Below, one piece after another: positions 16,787 to 19,838 of a stretch of DNA of 64,000 bases. Both the position numbers and the translations under genes were made by a program. The stretch covers positions 3,895,501 to 3,959,500 of the forward strand of contig OW203992.1 of assembly GCA_934047225.1 (NCBI GenBank), in the 5' to 3' direction. How positions within the stretch are numbered: position 1 is the stretch's first letter; every line of letters starts with the position of its first letter. This DNA is from Ypsolopha sequella. Its lineage: Eukaryota; Arthropoda; Insecta; Lepidoptera; Ypsolophidae. A model generated the notes under the pieces. That model ran no database searches. It worked only from the letters and a program-made list of their open reading frames with translations, and was not told the origin of the DNA.

Positions 16787-17483
16787 AGATCGGTTGAAGG
16801 GAACTATCATTCTAGGCGTTATTATTCTAAGACAGCGACCCTTCAGGTTTTTTTCAAGGGTTCTTCCCAGTTTTTTCCCCATTTCTACTTCAATTCCTCC
16901 CGCCATCTCGTACGGTTGTACCTATTGAGGCCGGATACTCGTATAAGGACTATGTACTCTGGAGGGCTAAAGCTTCCGGTATTAAAACAGAAGTCGGCTT
17001 GGCTTCATCGACTACTCCCAGGAAGACTGGAAACACCCAAGTCACGAAGAGACCCTTACCAGGTTTTTAGTATCCGTAGCCTAACATCCAGTAGTCTGGA
17101 TATCCAGCATCAATTATTTTTCTTCCTTAGTGTAAAGCTAGATAACGATTGCTCTTAACACCTTAATATTACGTTTTCTTTCGGATTAGAAGTTATTAAA
17201 ACTTCCGTGTAATCTTAGTTTCTGGGATACTATAAACTATATATAACTTTAAACTCTCGCGTTTTGTACACATTATAATATATATAATCGGGTCTACCGC
17301 GATCAATTTTTACCTTTTTACGAAAAGGGGGACACCCGACGTTTCGAGACAGTTGCATGTCTCGTGGTCTACGGGAAACTGGCAAGTATGGCGAGGCGCA
17401 GTGATGAGATGCAGGTGACGACCGAAGTATTTTCCTTGTACCCGCAAAAACACTTTAGTCTTTAAAATTAATTGTTATCTTAT

Positions 17484-18580
17484 TCACGCACGGCACACAA
17501 CACTCACAGTATCCGGAGATGCACTAAGAGAAGAAACCCGCGATTTAAATTTCCCGATGACTGGACTCCATGTGGGAGACAATTTGAAACCATCTTCCCT
17601 ATTGAAATTATTTGGATGTTTCTTGATTTCAATCGCTTCACGCACAATTCTAGGGTAGTAATGGCGATCGGTGGAGAGAATTTTCGGGTTATGCAGTTCT
17701 ATCCAGTGGTTGGTCCCGGATTCTAAAAGATGTTCTGCAAAAAAAAAAAAAAAAAAAAATTCAAAAAGTTTATTTTGCAAAGTAGGTATATATAATACAC
17801 GTTTCACAAGTCAAATTTTAATCTTATAAAAATATATGTCTATCGCTGATTTGTACATCTGCCGGTTTTTCACAGCTGCTATATGTTCCTTGACCCTTTC
17901 CTGTACGCTACGTTTTGTTTGGCCAATGTAGGAACTTCCACAGCTGCATTTTATCTTATAGACACCTGGATTTTGAAAAGGAATCACATCCTTTGGTGTG
18001 CGTAAATGGCTTGCCACTTTGGATAACGGAGTATATACAGTCTTAATGGAGTATTTATTTAATGCTGTTCCAATCTTATCCGTAATACCTTTGATATAGG
18101 GCATAAACGCTGGTTTTCTGTTAACCTCAGGACACTTTTCCTTTTTTGGTCTTGGATGTCGCCTCTTCATCTGATATCCGTTTTGTCTGAGTACCTCCTG
18201 AACATGTGACAGCTCATCCTTAAGATGGTCAGGGTCACAGAGATCATGTGCTCTGTTTGTTAGTGATGTCATGACGGATTGGATGTGACGAGGATGGTGG
18301 TGTGAAGAGGCGTGCAGGTATCTATCTGTGTGTGTTGGTTTTCGATATACAGTGTGGGCCAGAGAACCATCAGATCTCACCATTAATTTGACATCAAGAA
18401 ATGCCAAAGTTCTGTCACATTCCATTTCATACGTAAAGTTTATTTTTGTATGGATGGAGTTAAGATGATCTGCATACTGTTTTGCTTCCTCGTTACCCCC
18501 CTTGAGAATGCTAAATACGTCATCAACATATCTCTTCCAGAGTCTGATTGTTGAGGGACCGGTACGTAAAGCCTCCTCCT
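17484..18580 (-). pseudogene. PLE RT/GIY-YIG, minus-strand copy with insertion
   Basis: Mirror image of the plus-strand copy. It begins at EEALRTGPS, runs through RLWKRYVDDVF and FLDVKLMV, then the linker, to the GIY-YIG region CSCGSSYIGQTKRSVQERVK. At 17739-17840 a 102-bp LINE tail interrupts it after KSAI. The final part (HLLESGTNHWIEL onward) continues at 17484-17735 in another frame. The extra open stretch past 18580 is the spacer read backwards and is not RT. Dead copy. Confidence 0.88.
17739..17840 (-). mobile_element. 102-bp LINE 3' tail inserted in the left PLE arm
   Basis: After 21 A residues (T on the minus strand), 80 bp match the 3' end of the LINE fragment at 15378-15457. Absent from the right arm, so it inserted after the inverted arms existed. 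No target duplication is visible at the break. Confidence 0.85.
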
Positions 18581-19615
18581 GTGGCTCCGGTGCTCGCCAA
18601 TATCTGGATGGAACATTTTGAGGAGGAGGCTTTACGTACCGGTCCCTCAACAATCAGACTCTGGAAGAGATATGTTGATGACGTATTTAGCATTCTCAAG
18701 GGGGGTAACGAGGAAGCAAAACAGTATGCAGATCATCTTAACTCCATCCATACAAAAATAAACTTTACGTATGAGATGGAATGTGACAGAACTTTGGCAT
18801 TTCTTGATGTCAAATTAATGGTGAGATCTGATGGTTCTCTGGCCCACACTGTATATCGAAAACCAACACACACAGATAGATACCTGCACGCCTCTTCACA
18901 CCACCATCCTCGTCACATCCAATCCGTCATGACATCACTAACAAACAGAGCACATGATCTCTGTGACCCTGACCATCTTAAGGATGAGCTGTCACATGTT
19001 CAGGAGGTACTCAGACAAAACGGATATCAGATGAAGAGGCGACATCCAAGACCAAAAAAGGAAAAGTGTCCTGAGGTTAACAGAAAACCAGCGTTTATGC
19101 CCTATATCAAAGGTATTACGGATAAGATTGGAACAGCATTAAATAAATACTCCATTAAGACTGTATATACTCCGTTATCCAAAGTGGCAAGCCATTTACG
19201 CACACCAAAGGATGTGATTCCTTTTCAAAATCCAGGTGTCTATAAGATAAAATGCAGCTGTGGAAGTTCCTACATTGGCCAAACAAAACGTAGCGTACAG
19301 GAAAGGGTCAAGGAACATATAGCAGCTGTGAAAAACCGGCAGATGTACAAATCAGCGATAGCAGAACATCTTTTAGAATCCGGGACCAACCACTGGATAG
19401 AACTGCATAACCCGAAAATTCTCTCCACCGATCGCCATTACTACCCTAGAATTGTGCGTGAAGCGATTGAAATCAAGAAACATCCAAATAATTTCAATAG
19501 GGAAGATGGTTTCAAATTGTCTCCCACATGGAGTCCAGTCATCGGGAAATTTAAATCGCGGGTTTCTTCTCTTAGTGCATCTCCGGATACTGTGAGTGTT
19601 GTGTGCCGTGCGTGA
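18548..19615 (+). pseudogene. PLE reverse transcriptase/GIY-YIG endonuclease, plus-strand copy
   Basis: Open for 355 codons. True PLE sequence begins in the spacer (PVAPVLANIWMEHFEE); the first codons before it are the mirrored arm. RT palm motif RYVDDVF at about residue 42, FLDVKLMV at 91, YRKPTHTDRYLH at 108. A linker with CPEVNRKPAF follows, then GIY-YIG: VYKIKCSCGSSYIGQTKRSV with conserved Arg and the EHI helix, ending SVVCRA. PLE proteins copy RNA into DNA at a nick made by the GIY-YIG domain. The N-terminal half (fingers and motifs 1-4) is missing, so it is a truncated copy despite the open frame. Confidence 0.9.
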
Positions 19616-19827
19616 ATAAGATAACAATTAATTTTAAAGACTAAAGTGTTTTTGCGGGTACAAGGAAAATACTTCGGTCGTCACCTGCATCTCATCACTG
19701 CGCCTCGCCATACTTGCCAGTTTCCCGTAGACCACGAGACATGCAACTGTCTCGAAACGTCGGGTGTCCCCCTTTTCGTAAAAAGGTAAAAATTGATCGC
19801 GGTAGACCCGATTATATATATTATAAT
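19616..19827 (+). repeat. PLE 3' UTR with terminal hairpin
   Basis: After the stop, a hairpin GAGACA/TGTCTC (19736-19753) is followed by GAAACGTCGGGTGTCCCCC and the terminal AT-rich end. It is mirrored at 17272-17483. The CTGATG box seen in other PLE ends here is not recognisable at the 5' foot of the stem. Confidence 0.7.
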
Positions 19828-19838
19828 ACTATAAACTA

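Follow-up and report, generated by a model that had tools for sequence, protein, structure and literature searches.

Head-to-head pairs of a Penelope-like element with a tail on one arm in Ypsolopha sequella point to two-sided target-primed reverse transcription

We analysed a window of 64,000 nucleotides of Ypsolopha sequella DNA (contig OW203992.1) and found at 17227..19838 a head-to-head pair of Penelope-like element (PLE) copies, both 5'-truncated and facing each other across 40 bp. Pairs of this family in the same genome nearly always carry the tail of the element on exactly one arm. Two-sided target-primed reverse transcription explains the pair with a probability that we put at about 0.78. 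The one-tail rule is the new part of this result, and the anatomy of inverted pairs is already known for PLEs.

Table 1. Features of the head-to-head PLE pair (positions in the window).
Feature	Position	Strand	Remarks
13-bp direct repeat, left copy	17227..17239		target-site duplication
Left-arm tail, 32 bp	17240..17271	-	equals the sequence after the pLTR end in tandem copies; approximately codons 1-11 of the ORF
Left arm, 3' part	17272..17738	-	end of GIY-YIG region, stop, pLTR
Later 102-bp insertion in left arm	17739..17840	-	ends ambiguous by 1 nt
Left arm, 5' part	17840..18580	-	C-terminal part of RT and following region
Microhomology TCCT, 4 nt, at the 5'-5' join	18577..18580		fits both copies
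Spacer, 40 bp	18581..18620	+	RT coding sequence of the right copy only
Right arm	18621..19827	+	stops at the pLTR end, without tail
Shared A in both arms	18752 (mirror 18449)	+	private 31-mer
13-bp direct repeat, right copy	19826..19838

The two parts of the left arm are identical to the right arm at 1,206 of 1,207 aligned positions (Table 1), and an inverted repeat of this length is far beyond chance. The sole mismatch is at 18775, where the right arm has G and the left copy has A. The first-pass annotation had described arms of exactly 1,207 bp, which holds for the length but not for every single base, and had considered the element young, in agreement with one difference per 1,207 positions. 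It had also read the spacer as genuine RT coding sequence of the right copy, and the 40 bp are in frame with that copy and read VAPVLANIWMEHFE...; the right copy begins at 18577 on the plus strand if TCCT is counted, and its pLTR ends at 19827. The direct repeat, ATACTATAAACTA, flanks the whole pair as previously described. The right arm ends on two of its bases (19826-19827), and on the left one base can likewise be assigned to both, which leaves about 10 bp of the repeat outside the arms. These features support the insertion of the PLE as one unit with a target-site duplication, and the approximately 32 bp beyond the left arm, earlier likened to a Penelope tail extension, are a genuine PLE tail. 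The left arm holds this 32-bp tail, which is absent from the right arm, and the right arm holds 40 bp of 5' sequence, which is absent from the left arm.

The later insertion in the left arm comprises 21 consecutive A (17739-17759) and an 84-bp stretch (17756-17839) whose reverse complement stands unchanged at window 15378-15461, 2.3 kb upstream. From its sequence, the insert looks like the 5'-truncated end of a non-LTR retroposon. The sequence, whole or partial, is also present at L005/L022 (one locus), L026, and L035/L036, and some copies have GAATTT-type ends, as in non-LTR retroposon tails. A templated-repair origin was considered and rejected: other loci carry the same sequence or parts of it, and a dispersed retroposon end is likelier.

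The window element is a PLE of the EN-containing type and an ordinary member of the known class. The truncated window arm alone matched no Pfam family at E 0.001. The sister copy L011 contains an 824-aa frame at 4385-6859 with RVT_1 by Pfam (E 2.1e-8). Among 7,993 scored candidates, this ORF had 1,373 homologues, the best with 69% identity over 100% and the best named one, from Anticarsia gemmatalis, with 67% over 99%. An Anolis carolinensis protein matched at 43% over 97%; it is a homologue that may differ from Poseidon of A. carolinensis (PAc). Pfam did not detect a GIY-YIG domain in the 824-aa ORF; residues 698-770 align with a part of the homologue P0070 in which PF01541 is detected (E 9.2e-6), and this alignment suggests a C-terminal GIY-YIG endonuclease. 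The GIY-YIG region is present in both window arms, and the insert breaks it in the left arm. A PLE-type RT domain, a tail within the 30-40 bp range (here 32 bp), and a short AT-rich target-site duplication were all found.

We numbered positions on a reference (R, L011:2215-7071) in which the pLTR ends at R2172 and the tail at R2205. The ATG straddles the pLTR end (R2171-2173), and in tandem copies the tail is the start of the next unit. Tandem units with pLTRs have a period of 2,685 bp in L011, and arms that include portions of at least two units were found at L009, L010/L011, L013, L030, L033, L038, and L040; the window copy has none. A hammerhead ribozyme in the pLTR is reported for many PLEs. 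The window had no hit reaching the Rfam gathering score, and L011:4000-5400 gave no hammerhead even with E values up to 10 allowed. The hammerhead was not treated as defining PLEs, because its mutation in PAc had no effect on insertion in vitro (PMC11167929). Elsewhere in the window, a second, different PLE-like frame lies at 59302-62043 on the minus strand (913 aa; RT domain by Pfam, E 1.4e-8), where no inverted repeat of at least 60 bp was listed, and tandem arrays with periods of 22 bp and about 43 bp lie at 4311-4618 and 10559-10862.

A search of the 867 Mb assembly (151 contigs) with a 1,101-base right-arm query gave at least 47 matches; 40 of 1,320 first-look candidates were scored, and the matches were counted as 35 loci, 32 of which were read. 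L035 (C142) and L036 (C133) are the same insertion on two contigs and were counted once, which gave 31 distinct insertions; the short extra fragments L018:6421-6477 and L023:6057-6097 were left out of this count. The two contigs are small, identical over the compared stretch, and perhaps haplotigs or duplicated contigs. The sample covers one family in one genome, and like the second sample below is biased toward near-identical copies. Head-to-head pairs with their 3' ends outward, including that of the window, made up 26 of the 31 insertions, and no tail-to-tail pair was found among the 31. The genome search that the first-pass annotation had suggested returned 25 more pairs with different break points, in support of its view that a simple read fold-back artefact is unlikely; an assembly or read artefact is very unlikely. 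At C20:4854389-4865339 (G000), four minus-strand copies spaced 2,685 bp are followed by one plus-strand copy, which, judged from the positions of one 31-mer, may be a long arm of tandem units opposite an inverted one.

A direct repeat of 10-16 bp was found at 30 of the 31 insertions and one of 11-16 bp at all 26 pairs; no flanking direct repeat was found at L023. In 22 pairs, the maximal repeats of 11-16 bp were 58-100% AT, and the longest string common to the 20-bp flanks was 7-12 bp for true partners vs a mean of 4.4 bp and a maximum of 9 bp for 462 mismatched ones. The target of L029 has a match in L024 and that of L013 a match at window 46920-47060, and at both matching sites the repeat is present once, with slight divergence.

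The 52 outer arm ends, some uncertain in position by a few nt, formed two start-site clusters 33 nt apart: 22 lay at R2171-2174 and 19 at R2202-2207, and the other 11 were scattered from R2121 to R2199. Five tail arms were partial (R2183-2199), and five of the 52 arms start well inside (R2121-2145). Exactly one arm had a tail start (R2183-2207) in 24 of the 26 pairs and both arms in none (P 1.3e-5, given 24 tail arms among 52); no tail arm was present in L010/L011 (2141 and 2172) and L018 (2172 and 2163). Starts within 5 nt of each other occurred in 0 pairs vs 8.2 expected (4 of 200,000 shuffles). The target motifs of tail ends and other primer ends, compared by eye in 24 pairs, showed no clear difference, both being AT-rich, and the RNA fold across both start sites had an unremarkable z of -1.9.

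The 32-mer at the pLTR end occurs at 1,683 places genome-wide with up to 1 mismatch, and the first 100 of these, all exact, served as a second sample. A tail was called where at least 10 nt of it followed exactly, and the outermost listed end was used for each pair. Among the matches listed, neighbouring ends within 6 kb were oriented -+ 28 times, ++ 4 times, -- twice, and +- once (between two -+ pairs), and 27 of the 28 -+ pairs were mixed. Six of the 28 had been fetched earlier, including L010/L011, which has no tail arm by sequence, and calls from positions alone can therefore err. For the new, unfetched -+ pairs among the matches listed, positions alone gave 21 mixed pairs out of 22 (P 2.3e-5). 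The exception, C2:17387635, carries a real tail end on its right side, but the listed end on its left is an internal tandem junction, as in L010, and it may therefore not be a double-tail pair.

Which arm reaches further 5' was unrelated to the tail: in 21 one-tail pairs it was the tail arm in 12 and the tail-less arm in 9 (in L022 by only 4 nt). In three further pairs judged by inspection, the tail arm was longer in L038 and the other arm in L039 and L040 (2/3). The 5'-5' joins were free of filler in 13 of 23 pairs (L038-L040 excluded), and at least 2 nt of microhomology was present at 9 of these 13, vs 16.6% of simulated joins; the other 10 joins hold 1-126 nt of extra sequence. This pattern resembles end joining between two cDNAs. 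The short arm stops at R2112-2119 in six of the 26 pairs (L027, L033, L034, L035, L039, and L040), and the extra fragment L018:6421-6477 also ends at R2118. A predicted hairpin, CCUUUUCGUAAAAAGG, at about R2116-2131 adjoins these stops and is a possible RT stop site.

Two-sided target priming would proceed as follows. The PLE would make a staggered cut of about 10 nt at the target, which would leave a free 3' end on each target strand. Both of these ends would prime reverse transcription of the element RNA, one from the tail end (R2205) and the other from the pLTR end (R2172), 33 nt further upstream. Both cDNAs would run toward the 5' end of the RNA and stop at different points, 40 nt apart in the window. 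The two cDNAs would then be joined 5' to 5' by whichever activity acts on them, in the window via the 4-nt microhomology, and fill-in would produce the target duplication; an empty allele of the window site would hold a single ACTATAAACTA copy. We infer two primings, one per target strand, because each window arm holds sequence missing from the other. Judged from the geometry, both 3' overhangs can have primed, as on each side the cDNA strand extends from the 3' end of a target strand that carries the duplicated sequence. Several points stand against this reading: two of the 26 pairs (L010/L011 and L018) lack a tail arm, the five arms that start well inside and the five partial tails depart from the two start sites, the right arm of L038 matches the upstream and not the terminal pLTR of its partner, and the Anolis assay showed no start-site difference between the strands (PMC11167929). 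Furthermore, two-sided priming is not obligatory. Five of the 31 insertions (L021, L023, L031, L032, and L037) look single-armed, and ends of one strand only were found in 38 of 66 position clusters among the matches listed, a list of exact matches that misses partners truncated or mutated at the 3' end.

The variants common to both arms bear on the number of templates. In 60 marker-by-pair tests (8 markers, partly linked), the arms were concordant in 58, and shuffled partners gave a mean of 24 discordant tests with a minimum of 6 in 5,000 shuffles. Both discordances are in L038, whose left arm is a tandem, and it is the upstream pLTR of this tandem that the right arm matches. Five changes are common to both arms of one locus and absent from the other loci read (window, L012, L013, and L014 twice). 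The private 31-mer of the window, with A at 18752, occurs genome-wide only in its two arms, and the C version at 126 places; the private 31-mer of L012 occurs in exactly its two arms. That of L013 occurs in its two arms and at one other place, and therefore a common source suffices for the L013 arms. Sixteen further changes are private to single arms among the loci read, as expected from later mutation or RT error.

That both arms were copied from one shared RNA is a tentative reading, to which we give slightly less than an even chance. With the same reserve, two RTs acting as a pair may follow each other along one RNA, which is thereby copied twice, and each would take its primer from a different strand of the cut; the distance between them on the RNA would then account for the 33-nt offset, and the 'optional' tail would simply mark the product of the enzyme that trails. 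Two-sided priming from two separate RNAs of the same source is a sub-case that we regard as rather unlikely. The difference between the L038 arms at the pLTR and the third place of the L013 base speak for it, and fixed roles of the two subunits combined with two RNAs of one source would also give different start sites per strand. However, the private 31-mers of the window and L012 are each confined to the two arms of their own pair, and independent RNAs with two usable sites would leave the absence of same-start pairs without an explanation.

Models in which one arm is copied from the other fare worse. The first-pass annotation had proposed reverse transcription of one strand followed by a template switch onto the nascent copy, a snap-back in which one cDNA from the tail start folds back at its 3' end and copies itself. 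This model is improbable, because a copy cannot hold sequence that its template lacks and each arm holds sequence missing from the other. Although snap-back accounts for the identical arms, the shared private variants, and the microhomology at the joins, it needs a tail arm that is 5'-longer and contains the second arm, which is false in the window, in 9 of the 21 pairs, and in 2 of the 3 more; moreover, it leaves the second end cluster at R2171-2174 unexplained, and the window locus contradicts it unless the tail was trimmed precisely from the first-made arm. Self-priming on an antisense transcript with subsequent insertion of the hairpin product, which was proposed for Adineta PLEs by authors who left open whether the template is antisense or sense (PMC3846280), would yield pairs in head-to-head order with short palindromes where the two copies meet. 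It meets the same containment problem, and the ends of an unattached product need not match two RT start sites; we consider it quite improbable too, and both models were rejected on arm containment. Two successive insertions or a later inverted duplication are highly improbable even though tandem copies are also present in the genome, given the one direct repeat around each whole pair (26/26), the single, slightly diverged repeat at the paralogous sites matching the L029 and L013 targets, and the one-tail rule.

In LINE-1 twin priming, the second target strand primes internally on the element RNA and an inverted junction with microhomology results; the one RNA is split into parts, and the inverted part has no second copy. 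In contrast, both arms here copy the same 3' region, and the window holds no L1-style non-duplicated inverted segment, its arms overlapping over 1,207 bp.

In assays with a purified Anolis PLE protein, both strands were cut and extended, and reverse transcription began at two internal positions that have the tail between them (PMC11167929). The present family resembles PAc, of the Penelope/Poseidon clade, in its ORF with RT and GIY-YIG, its tandem units with pLTRs, and the 30-40 nt tail that separates its two RT start sites; one site here coincides with the ATG and the other is about 32 nt deeper in the ORF, whereas one PAc site lies 111-118 nt into the ORF (PMC11167929). The genomic rule adds to the Anolis assay that the two strands of one insertion use different start sites, and no rule linking both strands of one insertion was found in the portions covered of the PAc description (PMC11167929). 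Adineta vaga Pen2a and its relatives likewise show inverted pLTRs, most frequently head to head, together with a 9-10 bp duplication and a 31-bp tail on one inverted pLTR (PMC3846280). The tail of Adineta Penelope was called optional and antisense self-priming was proposed (PMC3846280), whereas the one-tail counts here argue for two-sided priming. Among the papers listed by literature searches, the titles and opening lines of abstracts indicated neither a one-tail rule nor one RNA copied twice for PLEs.

The template possibilities for PLE insertion were said in 2013 to need further experiments (PMC3846280), and the later insertion steps were described in 2024 as yet to be validated (PMC11167929). 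The one-tail rule and the private bases make genomic copies a test between self-priming and two-sided target priming, which is repeatable in other genomes with young PLEs. PLE priming is of wider interest because PLE reverse transcriptases share ancestry with telomerase (PMC3846280). These results bear on how PLEs insert and on why inverted copies with a one-sided tail are so common.
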